NCBI GenBank assembly: GCA_015178975.1
Contig: WHVD01000244.1
Span: 33,569 to 97,568 of the forward strand
Origin: Hysterangium stoloniferum
Taxonomy: Eukaryota; Basidiomycota; Agaricomycetes; Hysterangiales; Hysterangiaceae
Direction: 5' to 3'
Length of the DNA stretch: 64,000 bases
The translations under genes and the position numbers were made by a program. The notes beneath the pieces were generated by a model, which saw only the letters and a program-made list of their open reading frames with translations, was not told the origin of the DNA and ran no database searches. Below, piece by piece: positions 7,219 to 64,000 of this stretch (the first letter of the stretch is position 1; each line of letters starts with the position of its first letter).

Positions 7219-9157
7219 TTAATAACCCAGCCAAATTGATATTTCAGAAGGTGAACCATATGTGTTTAACACTGATATCAAGCTCGAGTTAGACGTTACC
7301 GACACACCAGTGAAGGGTGTGGCAATTACGCATAAGAAGGAACGAGCGATGAGAACTAAACATTCAAGACGCTCAAGGTGAAGTGAGTCGCTGATTGAAC
7401 CACGCATTGTTTTACAATGTCGAAGGAAACGCAGAAGAATGGCGATGCTATTGAGGCTGCGCACAGTGGTACACGCGGATTCGGGGTCGGAAGATTCCGC
7501 TATCAGCTGCAGAGTAACCAAGATTATTCGTTCGCCAGACGCTAAGAGCGGCCGATCTGGACTTGTTTGCATCAAAATCAGACTGGTAGGAGAATTTCAT
7601 GAGAGGAGGTAAGACAATACTGGAAGGTAAACATTGTAAACATACCGCAGGATGGGCCCAATGAGTGAAAACACCACATTCAGCTGGCTGATGTGATCGG
7701 TGCGAAGTGTGTTGTTGAAGAAGAAGAGCTGCACGGCCCGGGTATCATAGAACAGTAAATATGTGTAAAAATCATCATGAAGTGTCAAGGATGCAATATC
7801 CAAGTTTATGTCGTCCACTATAACCTCCAATACAGCTCCAGCAATATCTTGAAACCATGCATCTTGTTGTATGCAATTAATGAAAAGCCGTATACGATGA
7901 TCATTATATCCATACAACCGTCGTTGCTGGCCATTTTGTCTGTTTTGGTCTTCGTCAGCAGGATGAAAAGATGTGATGGCGGACGCACGGTTGTAACCAG
8001 AATTCAAAGTACCCTTTGATCGCAGTGACCTCCTCTACGGACAGCTGACGCACGTGGCAAATTTTTTCCACAATACACACAAGGCCAATAACGGGATTTG
8101 GATATTGACTACCAAAGCATGATAAATATCGGGCGAGTTGCACGATAAATGTTGATGCAACCTCATCTAAGTTGGTGTGTAGCGGTGACTCGATTACAGT
8201 ATTATAAAGGGATGACGTGATTGCAGCTGACGTATTATTTCCATCTGTCCATCGAGTGCCGGGGCAAAGTATCAGGGCCCAACCCAAGCATGTCACAAGC
8301 TCTGTAGCGTGACTTTTGTTAATTTGGTATGAACCCACCCAGCAGTCACGTAAGATCGACACGGCCCGTTTTCGAATTTGAGGCGAGTATGAGGGTCTGT
8401 GAAGACATAAGTATTTCGAATATATTCAATGATTGGCGCGGAGTCAACCCTACCTACACAAATCAATGCTCTCTTGAATTAGACGTCCCAGTCTTGGGAG
8501 AGTCAAATACTTTTGTGAGAACCTGTCACGCGCGCCGTGCGAAAGCACTCTATGTGCAATTTGCTCGTACACCGTCAACTTTGCCATCAGTGAAGTTTTC
8601 TTTGCAATGTAAAGGACTTTCATCCCAACCCTTTCCAAACCTACTCCACCATAATACCCGAGTCCTATTTCAATACTTGCAGATGTGCCATCATCCTGTG
8701 AGGCCGCTCCCCAGTCATGACTGCGATATGGGCTCGGCTTGGATGCGGTGTCCGTGGGCCTCCCTGGCATCGTAACAATAAGCGGTGGGTCATGGTAACT
8801 CGTTTCTCCTTGACACTGAAATGCACAGAATGTCATACAGAGTACATGATAATAGCATTGTACTTTACTTACCAACTCGTCAACCCAAACCTCTACATGA
8901 TTTTCAGACAATGGTATGTGCTGGCCATCATCGGGTGCCAGGTAACATATATCATGCCTGGGTTCATTACAGCTCCATCGTTCTCGGAGCTTCAACCGGA
9001 ATCTTTCTCTCATCCTCGTCTCAATGATCTGCTCCAGTTCCTCTGAGCTCAATACACCTGGGGAAATCAAAGGTGGTAACTCCTCAACATCTTCGAGGAG
9101 GGCTTCAGTCGTTGCCGAATCGTGATTCCCCAGACTCGCCTCGTTGAAAGTAGACAT
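7219..9157 (-). CDS. Uncharacterised 567-codon protein, left-arm paralogue (5 exons)
   Basis: Function unknown; no family recognised. The gene model reads from an ATG at 9157 and joins exons 9157-8873, 8815-8454, 8396-7985, 7926-7646 and 7582-7219. All joins are in phase and total 1704 nt (567 aa plus stop). The donors are GTAAGT, GTAGGG, GTCCGC (weak) and GTATGT, and the acceptors end in CAG. The protein is soluble-looking, with no signal peptide or membrane segment seen. The N-terminus is acidic (LLEDVEELPPL), followed by an Arg-rich stretch. A paralogue at 52948-54885 has exactly the same five exon lengths and differs only by substitutions, which argues that both are real and constrained. 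A TATA-like CATAAAAG lies 43-50 bp upstream in both. The third intron (donor GTCCGC) is the least certain part of the model. Confidence 0.75.
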
Positions 9158-9199
9158 TAGTAGGTAGCAGTCGTACTTACATTAGAAGGGGGTGCGGCG

Positions 9200-31387: not shown

Positions 31388-32519
31388 GACAGTAACTTTG
31401 TGAGGGCACAGCACACAAGCTGAAGCCACATCCTTCCATTTGGACTCTGTCAGATTTCCAACCTCCCGGCACACAACTTAACACCCTCCATCTATTCAAT
31501 AATAATGAATCTGGTAATTCCATTAATGATGTCCTGGCACTACATCTCCCATCATCAATCCCTCAAGAAATGAGATCTCTAATCTGTGCTAATAGTTTGA
31601 TTCCAACAGAGATGATTCTCCAATTTGCCCAAACAAATGCAAACCTTGATCAGCTTTGGAAATAGCTGTGATACTGTTCAGGTGGATATCATTTCAAACA
31701 CACCAACATGTCTGGTCAGCAACCAAGCACACAAATATATGCACAATTCAACAGTATCACAAAGAAAATCAATAAGCCAGCTGATGCCTACCATCAAACA
31801 TGCCAGATGCTACTTTGTCTGGAACCCAGCATGAGCAACAGCTCCTACTACCTGTCCTGATTTAAGATTCTATCAGCTGATGATGTTAAAGGCCCAATCT
31901 CAGATGAAAATGACCCTACAGCTACCTCCAGTCCATTTGCTGTTCTTGGTGAATGACATCATGTCCATTCATGGATCTGGAATATGCCAACATTTAATGA
32001 TTCAAGTGAACTTTTAGATGAGGGTAACTGTATGCTTGAGCTTTGACTCACTCCTGCTTTCTTAAATCTCTTAGTAGAATGGTTCCATCCTCATGCTAGA
32101 CTGAGTTGGTGGAATAAAGAAGTCATTATCATCATTGAAGAGATGTAATGAATGTTGGCCTATGGTGTGTATAAAGCAAAGTGGTGAGAGCAAAATCAGT
32201 GGAAAATGTGGGCTGAACCTTGTCCAGTTTCAATTACAAGCAGGATATCTGAAGAAGAAGACAATTACACTGCATTGAGAAGTGGTATGGGTATTTGGTT
32301 AGCAATGGCCTTGATTCCCCTTGGCTTCACCCAGATTATGACTTTGATGGCTAGTTCTTGTCACTGTGCCATTATTTCATATATGAATTATCTTTTATTT
32401 AGATAAAGATAAAAATCCATCTGCTGTTGCTAAAATGGCATATGAGATGAAGGACAAGAGCCACTGATAACTCTTAGTTGTAGATGGGAGACAAAGGAAC
32501 TTTGAGCTACATGACTACT
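31388..32519. other. Intergenic sequence, nothing recognised
   Basis: AT-rich sequence with frames no longer than about 70 codons and no known motif. It has no counterpart elsewhere in the window. Confidence 0.5.
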
Positions 32520-34039: not shown

Positions 34040-37000
34040 CTACATACACTGGACACAGTATTTGAAAAAGAGAGAGAGAAAAATTGGGAAAAGGAGAAAT
34101 AAATATTTAGCCTTCCATGTTTGCCTTTCCCTTCCCATATGAGAGGATGACTCATTAAACTTCACCCTGGATGCCAGAGTATCTGGGTGTTCAATCCCTA
34201 AAATCTGCTCCCTGGCCTCTAACAGCTGGATGTGGAGTCTTTCTGCATCTTGCCATCTTCCCATATGGGAATATGTCCATGCCAAGTCATTCCTAGAGGC
34301 CAGGGTCTCTGGATGTTCAAACCCTAATATTCGCTCCCTTGCCTCTAAAACAGAGACCTGCAGTCTTTCTGCATCTGGCAATTTTCCAATCTTGGAATAG
34401 GTGTTTGCCAAGTCATTTCTAGAGGTCAGGGTCTCTGGGTGTTCAAACCCTAATATTTTCTCCCTCACTTCTAACACATGGGCCAGCAGGCCTTCTGCAT
34501 CTGGCAATTTTCCAATATTGGAATATGTGTTTGCCAAGTCATTCCTGGAGATGAGAGTGTGGGGATGGTCATTCCCTAGGACTCTCTCCCTGCCCTCCAA
34601 AACCTGGACCTGCAGTCTTTCAGCATCTGGCCATTTTCCCATATTGAAATATGTCTTTGCCAAGGCATTCCTAGAAGTCAGGGTGTGTGGGTGTTCAGTC
34701 CCTAGTCTCTCTCTAGCCTCCAACACCTGAATATGGAGTCTTTCTGCCTCTGACCATCTGCCCATTTTTAAATATGTGTTTGCCAAGTCATTGCTGGAGA
34801 TCAGGGTGTCTGGGTGTTCAGTCCCTAGGATTCTCCGTCTCACCTCCAACACATGAAGCAGCAGTATTACTGCATCTGCCCATTTTCCCATTTTAGAATA
34901 TGTGTTTGCCAAGTCATTCCGGGACATCAGGGTGTCTGGTTGTTCTTTCCCTAGTATTCTCTCTCTGGCCTCCAAAACCTGGACCTGCAATATTGCTGCA
35001 TCTGCCCATTTTCCCATAGTCGAATATGTGGTTCCCAAGTCATTCTTGGAGATCATGGTATGAGGGTGTTCAGTACCTAAGATTCTCTCCCTGGCCTCCA
35101 ATACCTGGACTTGCAGTCTTTCTGCATCTAGCCATCTTCCCATATGGGAATATGTCTGGGCCAAGTGACTCCTTGCAGTTAGAGTGTATTGGTGTTCAGT
35201 TTCTAGGACTCTCTCCCTGGATTCCAACACATGAACCTGCAGTTTTTCTGCATCTCGCCATCTTCCCATATTGGAAAATGTCTGTGCCAAGTCAATCCTA
35301 GAGGTTTGGGTGTATTGGTGGTCAGTCCCCAGAATTCTCTCCCTCACCTCCAACACTTGGGTGTGCAGTCTTTCTGCATCTGGCCATCTTCCCATGCTGG
35401 AACATGTATTTGCCAAGTGATTCCTGGAGGCAAGGGTGTCTGGGTGGTCTGTTCCTAGGATTCTGTCCCTGGCCTCCAACACCTGGGCCTGTAGCCTTTC
35501 TGCATCTGGCCATCTTCCCATATTGTAATATATCAATGCCAAGTCATTCATGGACATTAGGGTGTATTGATGCTCATTCCCTGCAATTCTCTCCCTGGCC
35601 TCCAACACTTGGAGCTGCAGTTTCTCTGCATCTGGCCATTTTCCCATATTTGAATATATCTGTGCCAAGTGACTCCTGGCAGTTAGGGTGTATTGGTGCT
35701 CAGTCCCTAGGACTCTCTCCCTGGATTCCAAGACCTGGACAAGCAATCTTTCTGCATCAGGCCATCTTCCCAGACTGAAAAATGTCCATGCCAAGTCACT
35801 CTTGGAGGTTAGGGTGTATTCATGTTCAGTCCCTAGGATTCTGTCCCTGGCTTCCAACACTTGGACCTGTAGTTGTTCTGCATCTGGCCATCTTCCCATA
35901 TTGTAATATGTCTTTCCCAACTCTCTCCTAGAGTCCAGGGTCTCTAGGTGTTCAGTCCCTAGGATTCTCTCCCTGGCTTCCAACACCTGGACCTGCAGTC
36001 TTTCTGCATCGGGCCATCTTCCCATGTTGGAATGTGTCAAAGCCAAGTCACTCTTGGACATTAGGGTGGATTGGTGTTCATTCCCTAGGATTGTCTTCCT
36101 AGCTTGCAACACTTGGACCTCCAGTCTTTCTGCATCTAGCCATTTTCTCATATTGAAATAAGTCTTTGCCAACTCTCTCTGAGAGTCCAGAGTGTCTAGG
36201 TGTTCACTCCCCAGGATTCGCTCCCTGGCCTCTAACACCTGGACTTGCAGTCTTTCAGCATCAGGCCATTTTCCCATATTGGAATATGTCCATGCCAGGT
36301 AACTATTGGAGATTAGGGTGTATTGGTGTTCAGTCCCTAGGATTCTCTCCCTGGCTTCCAACACCTGAACCTGCAGTCTTTCAGCTTCTAGCCATCTTCC
36401 CATTCTATAACATGTCCAAGCCAAGTCACTCTTGGAGGTTAGGGTGTATTGGTGTTCAGTCCCTAGGATTCTCTCCCTGGCTTCCAATACCTGAACCTGG
36501 AGTCTTTCTGCTTCTGGCCATCTTCCCATATTGGAATATGTCCATGCCAGGGAACTCTTGGAGGTTAGGGTGTATTGGTGTTCAGTTCCTAGGATTCTCT
36601 GCCTGGCATCCAACACCTGAACATGCAGCTGTTCTGCATCTGAGGATCTTCCCATACTATGATATGTCCAAGCCAAGTCACTCTTGGAGGTTAGGGTGTA
36701 TTCATGTTCAGCCCCCAGGATTCTCTCCCTGGCTTCCAACACCTGGACCTGTAGTCTTTCTGCTTCTGGCCATCTTCCCATATTGTAATATGTGCTTGCC
36801 AACCCTCTCCTAGAGCCCAGAGTGTCTAGGTGTTCAGTCCCTAGGATTTTCTCCCTGCCCTCTAACACCTGCACCTGCAGTCTTTCTGCATCTGGCCATC
36901 TTCCCATATTAGAATATGTCCATGCCAAGTTACTCTTTGAGGTTAGGGTGTATTGGTGTTCAGTCCCCAAGATGCTCTCCCTGGCTGCCAACACCTCAAC

Positions 37001-40000
37001 CTGCAGTTGTTCTGCATCTGGGTATCTTCCCATACTGTAATATGTCCAAGCCAAGTCACTCTTGGAGGTTAGGGTGTATTCATGTTCAGCCCCCAGGATT
37101 CTCTCCCTGGCTTCCAACACCTGGACCTGAAGTCTTTCTGCTTCTGGCCATCTTCCCATATTGTAATATGTGCTTGCCAACCCTCTCCTAGAGCCCAGGG
37201 TGTCTAGGTGTTCAGTCCCTAGGATTTTCTCCCTGCCCTCTAACACCTGCACCTGCAGTCTTTCTGCATCTGGCCATCTTCCCATATTAGAATATGTCCA
37301 TGCCAAGTTACTCTTTGAGGTTAGGGTGTATTGGTGTTCAGTCCCCACGATGCTCTCCCTGGCTGCCAACACCTCAACCTGCAGTTGTTCTGCATCTGGG
37401 TATCTTCCCATACTGTAATATGTCCAAGCCAAGTCACTCTTGGAGGTTAGGGTGTATTCATGTTCTGCCCCCAGGATTCTCTCCCTGGCTTCCAACACCT
37501 GGACCTGGAGTCTTTCTGCTTCTGGCCATCTTCCCATATTGTAATATGTGCTTGCCAACCCTCTCCTAGAGCCCAGGGTGTCTAGGTGTTCAGTCCCTAG
37601 GATTTTCTCCCTGCCCTCTAACACCTGGACCTGCAGTCTTTCTGCATCTGACCATCTTCCCATATTAGAATATGTCCATGCCAAGTTACTCTTTGAGGTT
37701 AGGGTGTATTGGTGTTCAGTCCCCAGGATGCTCTCCCTGGCTGCCAACACATGCACCTGCAGTTTTTCTGCATCTGGGTATCTTCCCATACTGTAATATG
37801 TCCAAGCCAAGTCACTCTTGGAGGTTAGGGTGTATTCATGTTCAGCCCCCAGGATTCTCTCCCTGGCTTCCAACACCTGGACCTCCAGTCTTTCTGCTTC
37901 TGGCCATCTTCCCATATTATAATATGTGCTTGCCAACTCTCTCCTAGAGCCCAGGGTGTCTAGGTGTTCAGTCCCTAGGATTTTCTCCCTGCCCTCTAAC
38001 ACCTGCAACTGCAGTCTTTCTGCATCTGGCCATCTTCCCATATTAGAATATGTCCATGCCAAGTTACTCTTTGAGGTTAGGGTGTATTGGTGTTCAGTCC
38101 CCAAGATGCTCTTCCTGGCTGCCAACACATCAACCTGCAGTTGTTCTGCATCTGGGTATCTTCCCATACTGTAATATGTCCAAGCCAAGTCACTCTTGGA
38201 GGTTAGGGTGTATTCATGTTCAGCCCCCAGGATTCTCTCCCTGGCTTCCAACACCTGGACCTCCAGTCTTTCTGCTTCTGGCCATCTTCCCATATTATAA
38301 TATGTGCTTGCCAACTCTCTCCTAGAGCCCAGGGTGTCTAGGTGTTCAGTCCCTAGGATTTTCTCCCTGCCCTCTAACACCTGCACCTGCAGTCTTTCTG
38401 CATCTGGCCATCTTCCCATATTAGAATATGTCCATGCCAAGTTACTCTTTGAGGTTAGGGTGTATTGGTGTTCAGTCCCCAAGATGCTCTTCCTGGCTGC
38501 CAACACATCAACCTGCAGTTGTTCTGCATCTGGGTATCTTCCCATACTGTAATATGTCCAAGCCAACTCACTCTTGGAGGTTAGGGTGTATTCATGTTCA
38601 GCCCCCAGGATTCTCTCCCTGGCTTCCAACACCTGGACCTGGAGTCTTTCTGCTTCTGGCCATCTTCTCATATTGTAATATGTGCTTGCCAACTCTCTCC
38701 TAGAGTCCATGGTGTCTAGGTGTTCAGTCCCTAGGATTCTCTCCCTGGCTTCCAATACCTGAACCTGGAGTCTTTCTGCTTCTGGCCATCTTCCCATATT
38801 GGAATATGTCCATGCCAGGGAACTCTTGGAGGTTAGGGTGTATTGGTGTTCAGTTCCTAGGATTCTCTTCCTGGCTGCCAACACATGGACCTGCAGTTGT
38901 TCTGCATCTGGGTATCTTCCCATACTGTAATATGTCCTAGCCAAGTCACTCTTGGAGGTTAGGGTGTATTCATGTTCAGCCCCTAGGATTCTCTCCCTGG
39001 CTTCCAACACCTGGACCTCCAGTCTTTCTGCTTCTGGCCATCTTCCCATATTATAATATGTGCTTGCCAACTCTCTCCTAGAGCCCAGGGTGTCTAGGTG
39101 TTCACTCCCTAGGATTTTCTCCCTGCCCTCTAACACCTGCACCTGCAGTCCTTCTGCATCTGGCCATCTTCCCATATTAGAATATGTCCATGCCAAGTTA
39201 CTCTTTGAGGTTAGGGTGTATTGGTGTTCAGTCCCCAAGATGCTCTTCCTGGCTGCCAACACCTCAACCTGCAGTTGTTCTGCATCTGGGTATCTTCCCA
39301 TACTGTAATATGTCCAAGCCAAGTCACTCTTGGAGGCTAGGGTGTATTCATGTTCAGCCCCCAGGATTCTCTCCCTGGCTTCCAACACCTGGACCTCCAG
39401 TCTTTCTGCTTCTGGCCATCTTCCCATATTATAATATGTGCTTGCCAACTCTCTCCTAGAGCCCAGGGTGTCTAGGTGTTCAGTCCCTAGGATTTTCTCC
39501 CTGCCCTCTAACACCTGCAACTGCAGTCTTTCTGCATCTGGCCATCTTCCCATATTAGAATATGTCCATGCCAAGTTACTCTTTGAGGTTAGGGTGTATT
39601 GGTGTTCAGTCCCCACGATGCTCTCCCTGGCTGCCAACACATCAACCTGCAGTTGTTCTGCATCTGGGTATCTTCCCATACTGTAATATGTCCAAGCCAA
39701 GTCACTCTTGGAGGTTAGGGTGTATTCATGTTCAGTCCCCAGGATTCTCTCCCTGGCTTCCAACACCTGGACCTGCAGTCTTTCTGCTTCTGGCCATCTT
39801 CCCATATTGTAGTATGTCCTTGCCAACTCTGTCTTAGAGTCCAGGGCATCTAGGTGTTCAGTCCCTAGGATTTTCTCCCTGCCCTGTAACACCTGTACCT
39901 GCAGTCTTTCTGCATCTGGCCATCTTCCCATATTAGAATATGTCCATGCCAAGTTACTCTTTGAAGTTAGTGTGTATTGGTGTTCAGTCCCCAAGATTCT

Positions 40001-43000
40001 CTGCCTGGCTTCTAACACCTCACCCTGCAGTTGTTCTGCATCTGGGTATCTTCCCATTCTATAATATGTCCAAGCCAAGTCACTCTTGGAAGTTAGGGTG
40101 TATTGGTGTTCAGTCCCTAGGATTCTCTCCCTCATCTCTAGCACCCAGACCTGCATTCCTTCTGCATCTTCCCATCTTCCCATCTTGCAATATGTGTTTG
40201 CCAAGTCATTCCTGGATGTTAGAGTGTATGGATGTTCTTTTCCTAGGATTCTCTCCCAAGCCTCCAACACCTGTATCTGCAGCCTTTCTCCATCTGGCCA
40301 TCTTCCCATTTTGGAATATGTCAATGCCAACTCTTTTCTAGAGGCCAGGGTCTCTGGATGCTCAGTCCCTAGGACTTGCTCCCTGGCCTCTAATACCTGG
40401 ACTTGTAGTCCTTCTCCATCCAACCATTTTCCCTTCTTAATATATGTCTTTGCCAAGTCATTCCTAGAGATCAATGTGCATGGGTCTTCTCTTCCTAGTA
40501 TTCTCTCCCTGACTTCTAATACCTGGACCTGCAGTCTTTCTGCATCTGGCCACCTTCCCATATTGGCATATGTGTTTGCCAAGTCACTTCTAGATGCTAC
40601 AGTCTCTTGGTGTTCACTCCCTAGGATTTGCTCCCTAGCCTCCAACACCTGGATCTGCAGTTCCTCTGCATCTTCCCATCTTCCCATCTTGCTGTATGTT
40701 TCTGCCAAGTTAGCCCTGGAAGTCAGGGTGTATGTGTGTTCAGTGCCTAGTATGTGCTCTCTAGCCTCAACTATATCAATCTCAAGCCGTACTGCATCTG
40801 ACCATCTGTTAGTCTCCTTGTATACAAAGGCAAATCTCATGGAGAGATCATCATAATATATATTATTCTTGTCATTTGGTGCACCCTCATTTGTTACAAT
40901 GTGAGGCAAAAGTTCTTGTTGAAACAACTTGCCATTCCCTGTATCATCACACATATTAATACATCCTGTTATCAATGCTCTGGTTGCACATAGATGAGGT
41001 ACATCATCAATAGCCAGTGCCCACTCTCTTATCCACATATGAATGACAGGGTGCATTGTCCATGAAAAAGATCTTTGTGTGGCAGGATCTCTGGATAACA
41101 GTGAATAATCACAAAGGACCTGCATGGCCTCTCTGAATGGCAGACTAAGCCACTGTCCATAACTATTGGATTTGAGTAACTGATGTGGAAGCTCTGATGT
41201 GGTAGTCTGTAATACACCACCACATGTAGTTGCTGGTGGCAACTCTGCAGCTTGTTTGAAAATGGTTTCCATAATATTCTGGTGATGAAAGAATCCCAGA
41301 ACTTTCAGAATGAATAATGCATCTTGGGCACTTCTCGATTTTGTAGCCTTCTTCTCAATCATACTATATGACACTTTTAAAGTGCTATAAATATTGTTAT
41401 TATATCCAGATGCCCCTTTCATTGATGGATTGTCTGCACCAAAGAAATCTGCTTGATATTTTTTGTACATGACCAGATACTCTGTCACTGGACAAAGTCC
41501 ATTTGAGATGGTTGAGCCTGCAATATCCACAGCAAGAGGAAGGAACCCAAGTGTAGCAATAATTTGTTTAGACAATTCTTGAGTTGCAACATTTGTTTCA
41601 ATATCAGAGTTAGCTGCAATTTTAAATAGAGTAAATGCTTCATCCCTCTCCATTGGAACAACATTTTCAAACTCTGTCACATTGTTGCAGAGTCTAGGAT
41701 TACGGCTTGTGATCAATACATGAATCTGGCGGATTTGTGGCAAATAGTCTCCAACCACTCCATCCATTCCATCAGCATTGTCAAAGATGAGGAGGTATTT
41801 CTTTTGAATCTGTGCAAGCCATTCCAAAACTGCTTCAGCAGACTTTTCAACATCATGCAATTTTGCATCAGGCTCATCTGCAATATTTGAAATATCATTT
41901 GCTAGAGTTTCTGCATTTGTAGCATCTAGCCAGAAAATCCTCGAAAAGTTACTTAAAATTCCTAAATGAGTACTAGCAGGAGCAATCAAATAATTTACAG
42001 CTTACTAGTTATTGTTCATGAGTTCTTCAATGAATTTCAAACAAATCTGAGTTTTCCCAACTCCTCCCATACCATACAAAAGGAAATGCTTCCACGCGGA
42101 GTGTGGGCTCTGAGGGCAAAAAAAGTTCCGAAGTCTCATGAGATATTTTTCCCGTCCTACAAATCTTGGACTAGGACGGAACTTGGGAGTGTATATAGGT
42201 CCTTTGGAAGTATCCTCTGTGTAACACCATTAGCTCAAGTATTTCTATTTCTATTGATACCAACCACTTTGCTTATCAAATTCTGTCCACTGGATTTGCA
42301 CTGCAAATGGAGCTTTCCGGACCATGTCTTGTACAATCAATGATATGGTATTGAAGTCATCATCATCCATGGATTGAAATTTGGCCATGCCACTGTGACT
42401 CTTATGCATGCCTATTGATGGGACATTAACACTGCCAGGAACCACAGCAGATGATTTGGGAACAATCTGGATGCATGCTGTTGTGGATGTGTTTGCGATA
42501 TATTAGAATTCTGAAACTCACAATTTTAAATGTACCATCTGCAAGACGAGTTGGAAAATATTCATAGAAAAATTCCATCTGAAAATCAGCAGCAATCGGG
42601 TTAAAATCAGAGTTTTGTTGTTGTAATAGCTCTGAGTGAGAGATCAAATGCTTCAACAAGGTATTGTTTGGCCGGCAGCACAATGAAATAAATTTTAACA
42701 CCATGTCTGTGCCTTGGTGAGGTGTACCAAGAAAGAGAATGCCATACGTTGATAAACAGATCCATTTGTATCGCATAAGATGCCTCTTATTGGCCATAGA
42801 AGCTTGTATCAGGGCCTATTACCAGCAGGCATGAAAAAGGTAACGATGAGTTTGTATTTCAAGATGACGTACACTTTTAAGAATAATACCCCCTAAACTG
42901 TGTGCAATAAAAATTATTGGACGCCTCTAAAGAACATTGACAATATTAATGAGCAAGGCAAGTACTGTTGATTTTCAGTCAACGAACCGTCGTGCGATCT

Positions 43001-43429
43001 GTCTCTCTAGAATTGGAAAGTTTTGCCAGAAAATCCTGTGCGTGGCCATACAAAGTCTGCTGAGAAGATTGATTCTCTGTATAAGCATCGTAACCGTAAG
43101 ACCAAATTCGTGCTGTAGGAATAATCTGTGGGAGGAAGTCCCGGAGCCAGAGCTTCCCGTTATCGGCTGTCCAGGATGCTTCGCGATGGCCATCAAACCC
43201 ATGAATAGCGACGATACTATGAAATCCGGAAACTATTAGCCAGTTGATACTGATATATCTGGAATTCAACTACTTACTCAATGGTTGGTGAAGTTCCCGG
43301 TGAAAGCTCTTTAATTCCGAAACCGGGATCATTGTATGTATCCCGTTGTTGATCCACGGCATCAGCAGGATCAGCACTTTCCAGTTCACTTACAGCGGCA
43401 TAATGAATGGGTGTTGGAGTGGATGACAT
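34040..43429 (-). CDS. NLR-type receptor: alpha/beta-hydrolase, NB-ARC, about 53 TPRs (3017 aa)
   Basis: The architecture is a fungal NOD-like receptor: an N-terminal esterase-like effector, a nucleotide-binding switch and a repeat sensor. In known cases these act in self/non-self recognition and regulated cell death; its role here is inferred. Seven exons join in phase: 43429-43278, 43216-42988, 42926-42873, 42815-42522, 42466-42265, 42216-42006, 41951-34040 (9054 nt). Hydrolase signs are IVAIHGFDGH, nucleophile Ser137 in FIAHSLGG and probable His267 in HSGMAKF. NB-ARC signs are RFVGREKY, P-loop GMGGVGKT with Lys365, Walker B LLIFDNADG, LITSRN, LGFLPLA and MHPVIH. TPRs of 42 aa (consensus TYSNMGRWPDAERLQVQVLEARERILGTEH, in part) fill residues from about 755 to the end. 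The last repeat degenerates into a short Phe/Leu-rich tail. The last intron uses an AAG acceptor, the least certain splice site. No stop or frameshift was seen. Confidence 0.9.
36720..40121 (-). repeat. 378-bp higher-order repeat inside the TPR array (about 9 copies)
   Basis: Three 126-bp TPR units alternate in fixed order. One type starts LDTLGSRRELASTYYNM, one EYTLTSKSDLAWTYYSMGRY, and one QYTLTSKSNLAWTYSNMGRW. The trimer repeats about nine times (repeat units 7 to 33) with near-identical DNA. The outer TPRs are more diverged and have no trimer order. Boundaries are approximate (to within one 126-bp unit). Confidence 0.88.
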
Positions 43430-51434: not shown

Positions 51435-52947
51435 GTTCCTGGCACAGACCGAAGACTGACCTACCTCCGAAACCAATCATGCTTCGGCACCGACAAAATG
51501 TGCGATAGATATATCGCCATTTAGCTTGATTTTATAAATTTATATTCCATTGTAGGGAAGTTGCAGATTCTGCGTATCCTGCGAGCTGGCCCTTCAGTGT
51601 TTGTGCACTTGAGGAAAGTGTTTTCGACACTGGATAACAGCGTCTAGAACACTTCATTCAAGTGCATTTTCTTACTACAGTGGTTGCACATTACAATAAT
51701 TGAACTTGGGGACACCTATCTGAGATCTAATAGTAAATATTCTGGCACTCATCATCAACACAAACACAATGGTTTTGGCTAACAAGACCATGAATCCCAA
51801 AGTTTAGTATAATACTACTATATATCACTGTTCTCGCTTCACATGTAGTTACCTGCCGGTAATTCCTTTGCTCATATTTGTGCTCACCACTCGCTGCTCA
51901 ACATCTCACCATGTAACAATCAAATCATATGCAACTTTTGTTTTGCGGCTTCGCACAATGAATTTTGTAGTGTGCAAAATTCTAAATTTAAGAAACATTT
52001 CAAATACATTGATTAAATAGCTCATTGATGTACCATAAAAGGTTATTACTAATGTATTAACACAAGACAAAAGGACACCGTTAAGAATGGGAGTTATGTA
52101 CTCCTTAAATTAGATATAAAATGCCTTAGGTTTCGTCTTGCAAATGTCTATCTAATTTTCAACCATTGTTTCCTTTTAATGTTGTCCTAAAATGACATTT
52201 TATGCAGTGAAAACAACGCTGTTAAATTCAACCTAAAGGTTACCTTCAATCCCATCTTTACATGACCTAAAATGTCTATTTTAAGTAAGGTTTGGTACAA
52301 AACAAAATTCATTATCAAAGTTTATCTCCTTGGGAAGCATTTTGCGGTGCTCCAAAAAGGGTTCACCGCGGCAGTGTATATCTTTGTGGAAGCATGGCCA
52401 CAAGACTATAGCTCGAAATTAATCTGGGGCTGACTGCGCCATAAAAAGGCTGTATCCCCTTCTGGTATCAGTACGACTGCTGTCCACCAATGTCTACTCC
52501 CAACGAGATGACTCTGAGCAAACACGATAGCGCGCAATCTCGCCTGATAAAGACTGAAGTTGACAGCGCCAACTTGAAGGCAGCAGGCGGGAAGCATCGC
52601 TCTGGACTGTAATTACATTATACATCGCAATGCCACTCCTCGAATAACAGAAAAGCGGTGTTACTTTCAACTCTGACGTTCAAGAACACTAGAAATACTA
52701 TTCTATGGGGGTGACAATCGACCAAACTATTATTAGAAGCTGTGAGCCTTCAGGGGAAGGCGTGAAAAAGTAGTAAGGTAGCTTGGTACACTGGAGCCTA
52801 TATCGTTGAGGGGGTAAGGGCACCTTGGTTACGAAGGCAGATGAACCGCCGTAAATCCTGTGTAAGCACGGCCACATGGTTGTTCCGACTGACTGCTGCA
52901 TAAAAGGGCAGCACCCCCTTCTAATGTAAGTACGACTCTACCCACCA
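51435..52947. other. Macro-repeat intergenic region upstream of the right 567-codon gene
   Basis: No gene is supported. It contains the empty sites for the Crypton-like element (near 52080-52095) and for the 392-bp solo LTR (near 52240). A TATA-like CATAAAAG is at 52899-52906. Confidence 0.6.
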
Positions 52948-54885
52948 ATGACTACTTTCAACGAGGCGAGTCTGGGGAATTACGAGTCGCCGACGGCTGA
53001 AGTCCCCCTCGAAGATGTTGAGGAGTTACCCCCTTTGATTTCCCCAAATGTATTGAGCTCACAGGAACGGGAGCAGATCATCGAGAGGGGGATGAGGGAA
53101 AGATTCCGGTTGAAGCTCCGAGAACGATGGAGCTGTAATGAACCCAGGCATGATATATGCTACCTGGCACCCGATGATGGCCAGCACATACCACTGTCTG
53201 CAAATCATGTAGAGGTTTGGGTTGACGAGTTGGTGAGTAAGGTACAATGCTATTATCATGTAATCTGTATGACATTCTGTGCATTTCAGTGTCAAGGAGA
53301 AACGAGTTACCATGACCCACCGCTTATTGTTACAATGCCAGGGAGGCCCACGGACACCACATCCAAGCCGAGCCCATATCACAGTCATGACTGGGGAGCG
53401 ACCTCACGGGATGTTGGCACATCTACAACTATTGAAATAGGACTCGGGCATTATGGTGGAGTAGGTTTGGAAAAGGTTGGGATGAAAGTCCTTTACATTG
53501 CAAAGAAAGCTTCTCTGATGGCAAAGTTGAGGGTGTACGAGCGAATTGCGCATAGATTGGATCTGCACTGCGGGCTTGACAGGTTCTCACAAAAGTATTT
53601 GACTCTGCCAAGACTGGGACGTCTAATTCAAGAGAGCATTGATTTGTGTAGGTAGGGATGACTCAGCGCCAATCATTGAATATATTCGAATACTTATATC
53701 TTCACAGACCCTCATACCCGCCTCAAATTCGAGAACGGGCCGTGTCGATCTTAAGTGACTGCTGGACGGGTTTATACCGGATTAACAAAAGTCACGCTAC
53801 AGAGCTTGTGACATGCTTGGGTTGGGCCCTGATACTTTGCCCCGGCACTCCAGGGTCAGATGGAAATAATACGTCAACTGCAATCACGTCATCCCTTTAT
53901 AATGCTGTAATCGAATCACCGCTACACACCAACTTAGATGAGGTTGCATCAACATTTATCGTCCAACTCGCCCGATATTTGTCATGCTTTGGTAGTCAAT
54001 ATTCACGACCCGTTAGCGGCCTCGCGTGGATTGTGGAAAATATTTGTGACGTGCGTCAGCTGTCCGTAGAGGAGCTGACTGCGATCAAAGGGTACTTTGA
54101 ATTCTGGTTACAACCGTGCGTCCGCTATCATATGTTTTCATCCTGCTGACGAAGACTAAAACAGACAAAATCGCCAGCAACGACGGTTGTATGGATATAA
54201 TGATGATCGTATACTGGTTTTCATTAATTGCATCCAACAAGATGCATGGTTTCGAGATATTGCTGGAGCTGTATTGAAGGTTATAGTGGACGACATAAAC
54301 TTGAATATTGCATCTTTGACACTTCATAATGATTCTTCCGCATATTCACTGTTTTTTGATACCCGGGCCGTGCAACTCTTCTTCTTCAACAGCACACTTC
54401 GCACCGATCACATCAGCCAGCTAAATGTGGTGTTTTCACTCATTGGGCCCATCCTACGGTATGTTTACAATGTTTACCTTCCAGTACTGTCTTACCTCCT
54501 CTCATGAAATTCTCCTCCCAGTCTGATTTTGACGCAAACAAGTCCAGATCGACCGCTCTTAGCGTCTGGCGAACGAATAATCTCGGTTACTCTGCAGCTG
54601 ATAGCTGTATCTTTCGACCCCGAATCTGCGTGTACCACTGTGCGCAGCCTTGATAGCATCGCCATTCTTCTGTGTCTCCTTCAACATTGTGAAACAATGC
54701 CTGGTTCAATCAGCCACCCATATCACCTTGAGCGTCTTGAATGTTTACTTCTCATCGCTCGTTCCTTCTTATGCGTAATTGCCACACCTTTCACTGGCGT
54801 GTCGGTAGCGTGTAATGCGAGCTTGATATCAGTGTTAAAGACATATAGTTCACCTTCCGAACTATCAATTTGGGATGGTTATTAA
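52948..54885 (+). CDS. Uncharacterised 567-codon protein, right-arm paralogue (5 exons)
   Basis: Function unknown. Exons are 52948-53232, 53290-53651, 53708-54119, 54178-54458 and 54522-54885, of 285, 362, 412, 281 and 364 nt, exactly the lengths of the left-arm paralogue at 7219-9157. All joins are in phase. Introns are 56-63 bp. Shared stretches include ERWSCNEPRHDICYLAPDDG, SHATELVTCLGWALILCPGT, NLDEVASTFIVQLARYLSCF and LASGERII. No signal peptide, membrane helix or catalytic motif was noticed. A stop in the third intron's region (gac taa) supports that intron being removed. An apparent full-length open gene inside a decayed repeat suggests selection or a very recent duplication. Confidence 0.75.
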
Positions 54886-60218: not shown

Positions 60219-60254
60219 GTATTTTCTGACTAATACTCGCAGATTGTTTTCATT

Positions 60255-61544
60255 ATGCCACCAAGAAGAAGTACACGCGCACAGTCATCAATGCCTGGAC
60301 CGTCGACTCTTCATTCCCCGTTAACTCTGTATACCAGTCAGACGCTTGCGAACCGGTCGGAACCCATGGAAGAAGCCCGCATCGAAGAAATCCCGGAAGA
60401 CCTGGACGAATCCGAGCGTGAGGACGATTCCGTGGCCCCCGACAAGGGCAAAGGTGTCGAAATCCCTCCTGAAAATCCTCCACCTTTTCAACGACCGAAC
60501 ACGAGGGATCCTACTTCTGAGTTTTTAGCAGGTACTATAGATAAATTCATGACGCACCTGCTAGAAGAACGAAAAAGAAAGGAACAAGAACCTCCACGGT
60601 CAAAAGTCAATGCTCCGGAACCCTTCACGGGTTCCAACCCAAACAAACTCTCTACTTTCCTCATGCAATGTCGCTTCAATTTCCGCGATCGCGCCGCTGC
60701 ATTCTCCACGGACTCCCGAAAAGTCAACTACGCACTTTCATATTTGTCGGGATCCGCGTTGAAATGGTTCGAACCGGCTTTTAGCGGGATTACCGAGGAA
60801 GAGCCGCTCTGGCTTGAAAATTGGGAAGCTTTTGTTGAGGAGCTTGAAACCAACTTCGGCCCGTATGACCCGACAGGAGAAGCCGAGAATAGTCTCACAA
60901 ATCTTCGTATGAAGGACACGCAGCGCATCACGGACTACATCGTCCAATTCAATAATCTTGCAGCTCGTTGTCAGTGGGGCGATCCCGCTCTCCACCACCA
61001 ATTCTACGCCGGTCTGCCGTCCCGCCTTAAAGACGAAGTCTCAAAAGGAGAAGATGGCAAGCCAAAAACCCTGTCCCGTATGTGCCTCAAAGCTCAAAAC
61101 GCGGACGCACGTTATTGGGAACATCGCGCGGAAGTTGCCCGCGAGACATCCGCAGACAAAATAAACAAGTCCAAGGACAAAAACAATAACACCAATTCGT
61201 CAACCAGCAACCAGAACTCCACGCAATCCGACAAGAAGAACGATAAAAAGTCTTCAAACAACAACAACAATAAGGACAATAAGGACAACAACAAGGGTCA
61301 ACAGTCCGGCAAGCAAGCCGGAAAACACGACCTCTCAGGCAAACTCGGACCTGATGGCAAATTGACTCCACAAGAAAGACAACGTCGTATGGACAACAAC
61401 CTCTGTCTCTTGTGCGGGAAACCCGGTCATCGAGTCCCGGAATGTCCGCTGGCAAAAGCAAACTCTTCAAAGGGTCGATCAGCCAAAGCCTCCACGGAAA
61501 CCCCGTCGAAGGACAAACTGGCTGCCGATTCAAAAAAAGAGTAA
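60255..61544 (+). CDS. Gypsy Gag polyprotein (429 aa)
   Basis: This is the structural protein of the retroelement particle. The ATG at 60255 is 36 bases after the LTR. The retrotransposon-gag domain is recognisable (LSYLSGSALKWFEPAF, then NFGPYDPTGEAENSL and FYAGLPSRLKDEV, residues about 150-265). A long Asn/Lys/Ser linker follows, then one CCHC zinc knuckle (CLLCGKPGHRVPEC, residues about 385-400). The frame is fully open. It ends at TAA 61542-61544, four bases after a run of seven A, where ribosomes can slip back into the pol frame. Confidence 0.92.
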   Translation: MPPRRSTRAQSSMPGPSTLHSPLTLYTSQTLANRSEPMEEARIEEIPEDLDESEREDDSVAPDKGKGVEIPPENPPPFQRPNTRDPTSEFLAGTIDKFMTHLLEERKRKEQEPPRSKVNAPEPFTGSNPNKLSTFLMQCRFNFRDRAAAFSTDSRKVNYALSYLSGSALKWFEPAFSGITEEEPLWLENWEAFVEELETNFGPYDPTGEAENSLTNLRMKDTQRITDYIVQFNNLAARCQWGDPALHHQFYAGLPSRLKDEVSKGEDGKPKTLSRMCLKAQNADARYWEHRAEVARETSADKINKSKDKNNNTNSSTSNQNSTQSDKKNDKKSSNNNNNKDNKDNNKGQQSGKQAGKHDLSGKLGPDGKLTPQERQRRMDNNLCLLCGKPGHRVPECPLAKANSSKGRSAKASTETPSKDKLAADSKKE

Positions 61545-61568
61545 GCAACCCCGCGGACTCCACGCGGG
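61532..61568 (+). promoter_or_regulatory. Programmed -1 ribosomal frameshift signal between gag and pol
   Basis: The heptamer A AAA AAA (61532-61538) is in the correct phase of the gag frame (tcA AAA AAA gag taa). Eleven bases further is a stem cccgcg / cgcggg (61550-61555 with 61563-61568) with a 7-base loop. The -1 frame continues directly into protease. Confidence 0.75.
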
Positions 61569-64000
61569 TTAGGGGTTGCGTTGCCTCTCCGCGCATTCAA
61601 GAGTTCACTCGCCTCAACGCATCCGCTCTTTCACATTCTGATTCATTTTTCATTAAACTTATGTCTAATATGCTTCCGAAATTCGTTTTTTCAGCTCTCA
61701 TAGATTCCGGCTCAACTCATTGTTTTTTAGATACAAAATTCACGCAAAAAAATTCTTTGTCAACTTATTCGATAAATCCCGTCGCTCTCCGCCTCTTCGA
61801 TGGCACAAGTAATTTGGTTGTTACCCAAGCTTGTGATTTACCCATCAGTTTCCCTTGTGGAACATCTCAATTGGTCACTTTCTATGTGACCCAGTTAGAC
61901 TCAAGTTGCTCGGTGGTTCTAGGACATAACTGGCTTACCCGCTACAATCCGTTGATTGACTGGATAGCTAACAGTATAACATTCCGAACTCCCGTGGCGA
62001 CCGAGGAAACTGCGCCTGTCTCGGCCTCCACGGCACCCATGGCCTTCCCGGCACCTGCAGTCTCGAGGACTCCTGTGATCCCTACGGCACCTACAGCTTC
62101 CCCGGAACCCACGGCACCTCCGTCCATTTCTCTGATTAATGCTGCAGCTTTTATTAGGGCTTCAAAAATGGATGGGTCCCAGGCGTTCACTATCAACTTA
62201 AAAATTGATGAAGCAACTGGACGTTTCTCAACCCCAGTATCCGAATCTGAGCAAGCTGCTGACCTAGAAGGCGTCCCGGAGAAATACCATGACTTCGCGG
62301 ATGTTTTTAGCAAGCAAAAAGCTGACCGGCTTCCGCCTCACAGAGAATACGACTTAAAAATCGATCTTGAAGATGGCGCCCAGCCACCCCTAGGACATAT
62401 TTACCCGCTTTCGTCCACGGAACTATCCGCAATCCGTGATTTCCTGGATGAACATTTGTCCATAGGTTTTATTCGACCCTCAAAGTCTCCTTTTGGAGCA
62501 CCTGTTTTGTTTGTCAGAAAAAAGGATGGATCCCTTCGACTATGTGTTGATTTTAGAGGACTCAATGCTGTCACCAAAAAGGACAAATATCCACTCCCAC
62601 TTATATCTGACCTGCTCGATGCTCTGCGGAATGCCCGGATTTATACCAAAATAGATCTCAAGCACGCCTATCATTTGGTCCGGATTGCCACGGGCGACGA
62701 ATGGAAAACCACTTTTAGAACCCGCTATGGGGCCTTCGAGTGGTTGGTCATCCCTTTTGGACTCACTAATGCCCCATCTGTTTTTCAGCGTTTTATCAAC
62801 GACATTTTCTCCGACATGCTCGATGTATGCGTCATTGTTTACTTGGACGACATTCTTATCTAGTCCGAGAATCCCGCGGAACACGACAAACAAGTCCGTG
62901 AGGTTCTCCGGAGGCTCAGACAACATGGTTTATTCGCAAATGGTAAAAAATGTACTTTTGACACGGACTCCGTGGAATACCTAGGTTTCATGATGGGACC
63001 CGATGGACTCCACATGGACGAAACTAAAGTGCAGGTCATCAAAGATTGGCCCGAACCCCGAAAAGTTAAAGATATCCAATCCTTCCTCGGCTTTGCCAAT
63101 TTTTATAGACGTTTTATCCGTGGATATTCCGACATCACGGTACCCTTACCCGTCTTACGCGTAAGGGTACTCCGTGGAACTTTAACGATAAGTGTCAAAA
63201 AGCTTTCAATCTTTTAAAAAATTCTTTTTCCACAGCTCCTATTCTGTCGCATTGGAAACCGGACTTCCCGCTCATTGTTGAAACGGACGCCTCCGACTAT
63301 GCACTTGGAGCCATTCTCTCTATCCAGGACTCCGACGGAGAAGTTCACCCCGTGGCTTTTCTGTCCCGGACTTTTACCGGAGCAGAGCTCAACTACGACG
63401 TTCATGATAAAGAACTTCTGGCAATCTTTTCAGCTTTCAAAGCGTGGCGACACTATTTGGAAGGTTCAGGAGCTCCTATTGACGTTGTAACAGATCACAA
63501 AAACCTGGAATACTTTTCTACCACAAAACTCTTGACCCGTCGGCAGGCCGCTGGTCTGAATATCTCTCCGCCTTCAACATGATTATCCGTTTTCGACCCG
63601 GCCGTCTCGGCGGCAAACCGACGCTTTAACTAGACGATGGGACGTCTATCCTAAAGAGGGGAGCAACGACTATGCAATGGTAAATCCGCACAACCTGAAA
63701 CCTATCTTCACGAATCAACAACTTACCGCATCGGTCCACGCAACTTTCCTCGTCAATCCCATTGTCCGTGGAATTATCATTATGGATATCGAAAAGTTAC
63801 ATCAAGATATTCTATCGGCAATTCCGCTAGACCCAGTTACTAAAGCTCATCTGGACAATCCCGTGGACCCCGATCAACCTCGGTGGTCTCTTGATCAACA
63901 TGGTTTCATTAGACTTGACGATCGTATCTATGTACCGGACTTCGACGGCCTCCGCCTCAGGATCCTTCAATATAAACATGATCATCCACTCTCAGGACAT
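61539..64000 (+). pseudogene. Gypsy Pol polyprotein, broken and truncated
   Basis: This encoded protease, RT, RNase H and integrase. Signs in order are protease ALIDSGSTHCFLD, RT VLFVRKKDGSLRLCVDFRGL then YTKIDLKHAYH then VYLDDILI, RNase H VETDASDYALGAIL with TDHKNLEYF, and the start of the integrase HH-CC finger (LRLRILQYKHDHPLSGH at the window end). Lesions are a TAG at 62861-62863 right after the RT active site, where family members have Tyr, and frame changes near 63145, 63549 and 63616, each explained by loss of one base. Two of the losses fall in C runs, so assembly error must be considered for those. Unlike the copia element, the stop is not a C-to-T change. Confidence 0.88.

Follow-up and report, generated by a model that had tools for sequence, protein, structure and literature searches.

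What does an intact giant gene encode when it lies in a repeat-rich stretch of a fungal genome, and what might it be for? The gene considered here occupies positions 34040-43429, on the minus strand, of a window of 64,000 nucleotides from Hysterangium stoloniferum (contig WHVD01000244.1, here C162, in a searched genome of 111.1 Mb and 554 contigs). This seven-exon gene is intact. The features of its product point to a fungal receptor of the STAND (signal transduction ATPases with numerous domains) or NOD-like receptor (NLR) kind, in which a sesB-like hydrolase, an NB-ARC domain and a long array of tetratricopeptide repeats (TPRs) are combined, and we consider it fairly likely that a receptor of this type, with a non-self or immune role and the mechanism proposed below, is what the gene specifies.

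The integrity of the gene can be read from its frame. The joined exons give 3017 residues plus a stop (3018 codons) with zero internal stops, the same number as in the first-pass annotation, which had described a seven-exon gene without lesion. Exon 7 sits inside an open frame of 2653 amino acids, far longer than expected by chance, and the splicing pattern recurs among the relatives of the gene: all six introns are GT..AG in six of six close paralogs, and six GT..AG introns are found again in four of five paralogs of about 60% identity (the fifth gave no alignment). Among the close paralogs the lengths of the introns vary by 1 to 10 bases and those of the exons by multiples of three only. The final boundaries at introns 5 and 6 are preferred because of the close-paralog frames; with them the hydrolase and NB-ARC regions are open in all five close paralogs compared, and in three paralogs the stretches that the final model assigns to intron contain stops or are shifted by one base. 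Two candidate models were rejected: an automatic one of 3025 amino acids that differs at introns 5 and 6, its choice of intron 5 having no AG acceptor, and one with a 33-nucleotide intron 6.

Searches with hidden Markov models of protein families found each of the three parts that had been proposed. The NB-ARC domain is matched in Pfam at 1.1e-16 and the repeat region by TPR_10 in 53 stretches. For the joined N-terminus the match is to DUF676 (1.4e-4), whose members are putative serine esterases, with a score barely above the cut-off (21.9 bits against 20.3). The hydrolase class was judged by this match and by motifs. The serine and histidine motifs of the hydrolase, the P-loop, the Walker B and the MHP-type motif of the earlier description were all located in the joined protein, LLIFDNAD beginning at residue 434 and MHP at residue 680 (for HSLGG, HSGMAKF and GMGGVGKT see the table); these motifs are here named nucleophile elbow, P-loop, Walker B, GLPL and MHD-type, and HGFDG is presumably an oxyanion-type motif. 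Most of them are shared by the family: among the 30 loci with the best NB-ARC scores in the genome, which include the gene's own (L039), the HG[FL]DG-type motif is present in 27, the HSLGG elbow in 28 and the candidate histidine motif H..M.KF in 25, and the P-loop, Walker B, GLPL and MHP motifs in 28, 26, 29 and 27, respectively. A search of PDB chains with the NB-ARC region found 9h2l, an NB-ARC domain-containing protein (4.4e-5), and Roq1, a plant receptor (0.0075). The hydrolase also has a PADLOC match, DUF626_VIII (3.2e-8), and the NCBIfam model NF040586 reaches 1543.7 bits against a cut-off of 300 in 15 stretches, the best of them in the TPR array.

The gene belongs to a large family. Searching the genome with its NB-ARC region gave 92 matches, which merge into 85 places, the window's own included, and at least 67 of these have a same-strand hydrolase match no more than 2.5 kb upstream; the latter count uses 91 hydrolase matches of a longer list, beyond which there may be others, and the hydrolase and NB-ARC queries were made with an earlier gene model, a few residues of which are since counted as intron. 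The nearest paralogs lie on C84 (98% identity), C528 (93%), C277 (91%), C157 (three, 83–85%) and C70 (80%), followed by a large group near 60% and by others at 39–51%. Over the first 814 codons, which cover the hydrolase, the NB-ARC domain and the first repeats, the ratio of nonsynonymous to synonymous substitution rates (dN/dS) between the window gene and the copies on C84 and C528 is 0.43 each, with two C157 paralogs 0.40 and 0.43, and with C70 0.42. For the part after the hydrolase taken by itself, the ratio against C84 is 0.95 and rests on 18 changes only, so that no recent constraint can be demonstrated for that part. Collinearity between C84 and the window extends over about 34 kb to at least 46 kb of the latter, with 97.7–98.0% identity adjoining the gene and 90% at greater distance, and the pair may represent haplotypes or else duplicates. 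Published work places this family in context. The number of NLRs per basidiomycete genome has a mean of 83 and a record of 602 (PMC10197012), and given these values a family of 85 is not extreme. sesB-like domains are described as almost missing among basidiomycete NLRs (PMC9815663), with a sesB-like/NACHT/WD40 protein listed for the basidiomycete Piriformospora indica (PMC4986451), and in the Sordariales, which are ascomycetes, the sesB-like domain is one of the commonest N-termini and NB-ARC is paired most often with TPRs (PMC12258605). Our counts suggest that sesB-like NLRs are abundant in this basidiomycete genome, and they have perhaps been under-annotated because the hydrolase is divergent. 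The family models, the gene structure conserved among paralogs, dN/dS below 1 and a TPR model resembling kinesin light chain together bear out the first-pass description of an NLR-type protein with esterase, NB-ARC and about 53 TPRs.

The array itself consists of 52 regular units, one of them of 41 residues, and a degenerate first unit. Its length and regularity had been called unusual, which holds in comparison with the literature, where 21 highly conserved TPRs are the most named in the sections consulted of a 2014 survey, but not within its own genome, where one C157 paralog is a single open frame of 4247 amino acids with 90 regular TPRs. In the center (units 6-35), DNA identity is 95% between units three apart and 80% between neighbors, which defines a triad of 378 bp. 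Of the 52 units, 48 are distinct in DNA, and none of the 28 triads beginning at units 6 to 33 exactly repeats another. Comparison with the C84 copy, which has 47 regular units and so differs by five TPRs, shows where the arrays change: the first 5 and last 17 units correspond one to one at 94–100% identity, and the centers differ. Central units of the window gene are closer to their own array than to that of C84 in 22 of 30 cases (7 the reverse, 1 tie), and those of C84 closer to theirs in 17 of 25 (6 the reverse, 2 ties). The C157 array contains seven exact pairs of units 13 units apart, which we read as the mark of a recent block duplication. A predicted model of nine TPRs consists of regular helices. 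Five models were made from an alignment of three sequences, with mean predicted local distance difference test scores (pLDDT) from 70.0 (worst) to 90.7 (best); in a Foldseek search the nearest folds of the nine-TPR model are the TPRs of kinesin light chain, and the Podospora entries 4y6c and 4y6w appear at ranks 22 and 30.

It is informative to ask where within the unit these repeats differ. TPR ligand positions have been given as 2, 5, 9, 12 and 13 (PMC1261162), and the conserved columns L7, A8, Y11, G15 and A20 place them at columns 10, 13, 17, 20 and 21 of the unit. Mean entropy at these columns is 2.01 bits in the window gene, 2.12 in C84 and 1.90 in C157, against 0.78, 0.80 and 0.69 elsewhere (two C84 units left out, the one with the stop and the degenerate first one), and 14, 1 and 13 of 100,000 random five-column sets are as high. 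In the rest of helix A the values are 0.86, 0.89 and 0.69 bits. With positions 33 and 34 added, the signal is weaker and is kept (60, 44 and 115 of 100,000), and of 42 possible registers the ligand one comes out first in each of the three genes. Variation is concentrated at the concave ligand positions in three of three genes, two of which are near-identical.

A role in non-self or immune recognition is, by analogy, probable. It becomes likelier because amino-acid variation is in excess at the TPR ligand positions, because the number of repeats differs between near-identical copies, and because of the published behavior of the class (PMC4986451). Beyond the architecture, the mechanism is drawn from that class and can be put as follows. 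A long solenoid of kinesin light chain-like TPRs would bind a non-self or modified-self molecule on its concave face; binding would free the NB-ARC switch, allowing nucleotide exchange and oligomerization; clustering would activate the DUF676/sesB-like hydrolase, and the hydrolase might then attack membrane lipids or another ester, with the result that the cell is killed or restricted. The center of the array would gain, lose and homogenize blocks of TPRs, here triads, between fixed ends, giving a fast change of specificity, and in the close subfamily a hydrophobic tail may keep the receptor at the membrane near its substrate.

This tail, a hydrophobic stretch that ends the protein after the last TPR and is conserved in the closest subfamily, deserves separate consideration. 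When the last 66 residues serve as query, 16 listed places reach into it, the window included. In 11 aligned tails the maximal hydropathy over 19 residues is at least 1.66 in every case, and the proportion of nonsynonymous differences (pN) is 0.135 against 0.266 for synonymous ones (pS), C215 being left out of both counts; the predicted model runs one helix through the tail (pLDDT 66-81, from three aligned sequences). In C157_212, which is among these 11, a stop interrupts the frame ahead of the tail. Among five paralogs outside the close subfamily that were inspected for such a tail, those on C112 and C103 stop soon after the last TPR without one and three are uninformative. A membrane (tail) anchor, possibly present in the closest subfamily, is a reasonable reading of these features. 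Its main rival holds that the stretch is not translated and belongs either to a seventh, unseen intron (GTGAAG..CAG), of which it would form the pyrimidine tract, or to noncoding 3′ DNA. The tail codons are indeed rich in T and an AG is retained in all 11 tails; yet upstream of the stop both indels measure three bases, whereas downstream some measure 1, 2 and 5 bases, C70 is without the GT, and both the excess of pS over pN and the hydrophobicity of every tail speak for a translated stretch, which leaves this rival doubtful. Among the papers listed in literature searches there was no membrane-anchored fungal NLR, which is not proof of absence.

Several findings weigh against the receptor reading as a whole. 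On the side of the hydrolase, the DUF676 match is marginal, the candidate serine and histidine motifs could be placed and the acid residue of the triad could not, and a sequence search of the PDB with the hydrolase, up to E 10, gave zero matching chains. As regards the family, some of the 85 places are fragments, two places on C23 match different halves of the query so that one gene is possibly counted twice, and the C84 sister copy has one in-frame TGA within its TPR array, at C84:123015. As to the variability signal, the register at offset 1 scores nearly as high, and columns 14 (TPR position 6), 3, 6 and 7 are about equally variable; position 6 contacts the ligand too, in HOP (PMC1261162), and the loop columns 3, 6 and 7 have pN of 0.36–0.38 against pS of 0.13–0.27. 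With column 14 set aside, pN/pS at the ligand columns is 1.03, 1.04 and 1.27 against 0.43, 0.39 and 0.42 elsewhere, which is a clear contrast, although values near 1 are no proof of positive selection. Since the NB-ARC regions of the window gene and its C84 copy share 98% identity, the three genes amount to something closer to two tests. Finally, the picture is less clear when all units are taken together: units of the window gene share on average 79% identity with one another and those of C157 81%, only slightly more than the 78% shared by units from the two genes.

Other explanations of the gene can be considered. It is unlikely that the number of repeats is an assembly artifact, from a mis-joined or collapsed array, or that C84 and C162 are two haplotypes of one locus. 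Near-identical tandem repeats are difficult to assemble, and the two contigs are collinear over about 34 to at least 46 kb; yet the frame is unbroken, the distinctness of the units and the lack of duplicate triads argue against an artifact, other loci carry arrays of other lengths, and if there are two haplotypes the domain reading is unchanged either way. Somewhat less credence is due to the idea that the protein is a STAND scaffold or kinesin light chain-like adaptor without immune function, whose array gathers an endogenous partner and whose length sets the stoichiometry. The nearest folds of the nine-TPR model and the strongly conserved framework columns of the TPRs would suit such a scaffold, which would however be expected to keep its binding residues alike, and here the ligand columns belong to the most variable ones. 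A housekeeping adaptor is also a poor fit to a family of dozens of paralogs that diverge and have an enzyme-like N-terminus. The gene could, lastly, be a by-product of duplication, copied along with transposon-rich blocks, its arrays growing by slippage or unequal exchange and most copies unexpressed or dying. Flanking repeats found again on many contigs, a C84 copy that is collinear past the gene and has an in-frame stop, and the ratio of 0.95 in the post-hydrolase (NB-ARC) part speak for this reading. Against it stand dN/dS of 0.40–0.43 in five of five comparisons of hydrolase and NB-ARC, exons that change length by multiples of three only next to introns of varying length, and 3017 open codons, and we regard it as the least probable of these explanations.

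Features of the gene in the window (positions of the forward strand; position 1 is the first letter of the window).
Feature	Position	Strand	Remarks
Whole gene	34040..43429	-	7 exons, 3017 aa + stop; open joined frame, introns conserved in paralogs
Exon 1	43278..43429	-	start ATG at 43429
Exon 2	42988..43216	-	holds HGFDG, residues 56-60
Exon 3	42873..42926	-	HSLGG, residues 136-140, about 42902-42888; motif in 28/30 loci
Exon 4	42522..42815	-	holds LGTPH motif
Exon 5	42265..42466	-	HSGMAKF, candidate catalytic His residue 267, about 42397; motif in 25/30 loci
Exon 6	42006..42216	-	P-loop GMGGVGKT, residues 359-366, about 42073-42050
Exon 7	34040..41951	-	remainder of NB-ARC, TPR array, tail, stop
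Putative DUF676/sesB-like alpha/beta-hydrolase domain, N-terminal (exons 1-5)	42265..43429	-	DUF676 1.4e-4
NB-ARC region: P-loop, LLIFDNAD, LGFLPLA, MHP near 41056; includes intron 6	41000..42100	-	NB-ARC 1.1e-16
Degenerate first TPR	40751..40876	-	
52 regular TPR units, 42 aa each (one of 41)	34202..40750	-	
Array center, period-3 higher-order repeat (378 bp)	36341..40120	-	lag-3 identity 95%, lag-1 80%
Hydrophobic C-terminal tail YLFLLFPIFLSLFFKYCV, possible tail anchor	34052..34105	-	

The surroundings of the gene are rich in repeats, shared, mostly at 80–95% identity, by C162, C84, C528, C174, C237, C362 and other contigs, and include pieces of copia, Ty3 and DDE transposase elements. The first-pass annotation had called everything around the gene decayed; in the inspected parts of the window this fits the copia and Ty3 pieces, which are split over several frames, but not a gag frame of 436 amino acids that survives in a Ty3-type retroelement at 60234-63582, the pol of which lies in at least two frames. 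One repeated block, at 8450-9181 (minus strand) and 52930-53655 (plus strand), has copies on C162, C528, C174, C237, C362 and C84 that are 92–95% identical, and its frame of about 240 amino acids had no Pfam match. On C84, a frame of 271 amino acids that looks transposase-like by eye (C84:130151-130963) splits stretches that are continuous near window position 32030. Elsewhere in the genome, the 5.8S and large-subunit ribosomal RNA sequences bear signatures that resemble those of Agaricomycetes. Extra copies at C15:56248-56402 (L074) and C90:356836-356990 (L075) differ from the best copy (L073) in what seem, by eye and uncounted, to be mainly C-to-T and G-to-A substitutions, suggestive of a mutation process acting on repeats. 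DUF6533, a family common in Agaricomycetes, has at least 150 matches genome-wide, many of them clustered on C542, C24, C57 and C535.

Comparison with better-known proteins helps to delimit the receptor reading. The TPR domains of KLC1 and KLC2 share the TPR fold and are the best Foldseek matches of the nine-TPR model. Kinesin light chain is a motor adaptor with about six TPRs and neither NB-ARC nor hydrolase, an architecture that the window gene, with its NB-ARC and DUF676 regions, does not have. The plant NLR Roq1 is similar in its NB-ARC region; it carries a Toll/interleukin-1 receptor (TIR) N-terminus and leucine-rich repeats where the window gene has hydrolase and TPRs. NF040586 describes a TPR protein of the bacterial FxSxx-COOH system, and here the match is seen in the TPR part only and the context of that system is absent.

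The sesB-like/NB-ARC/TPR NLR is a known kind, and what is added here is an extreme array, an abundance unusual for the lineage and a possible membrane anchor. One can imagine, tentatively, a basidiomycete repertoire of hydrolase-NB-ARC receptors with TPR solenoids of up to about 90 repeats, some of them anchored, in which amplification of central blocks between fixed ends creates new recognition surfaces and so provides germline diversification. If this were true, diversification by repeat shuffling would operate on a scale beyond the fungal cases that we found described. The set of paralogs together with the recent copy pair offers a test bed for fungal NLR diversification of this sort, with arrays considerably longer than any named in the sections consulted of the 2014 survey, and an anchored fungal NLR that itself carries a lipase-like domain would hint at the site of receptor action.

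Within this kind, the nearest comparison is with Pa_2_10340 of Podospora anserina and the fungal NLRs of its class, which have the same hydrolase, NB-ARC and near-identical TPRs of 42 residues, and in which ligand-face positions are likewise variable and the number of repeats changes (PMC4986451). The repeats 4y6w and 4y6c, near-identical TPR-like repeats from the same fungus, superpose on the nine-TPR model with a template modeling (TM) score (target) of 0.82–0.83, a root-mean-square deviation of 3.1 and 32–33% identity, as fragments of 211–212 residues, of five-repeat size, solved as a chain without NLR context. The number of TPRs ranges from 2 to more than 15 for Pa_2_10340 (PMC4986451), against 52–53 in the window gene and 90–91 in the C157 paralog. 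Unlike Pa_2_10340, the window gene lies in a basidiomycete genome, has a higher-order repeat of period 3 and ends in a hydrophobic C-terminal tail.

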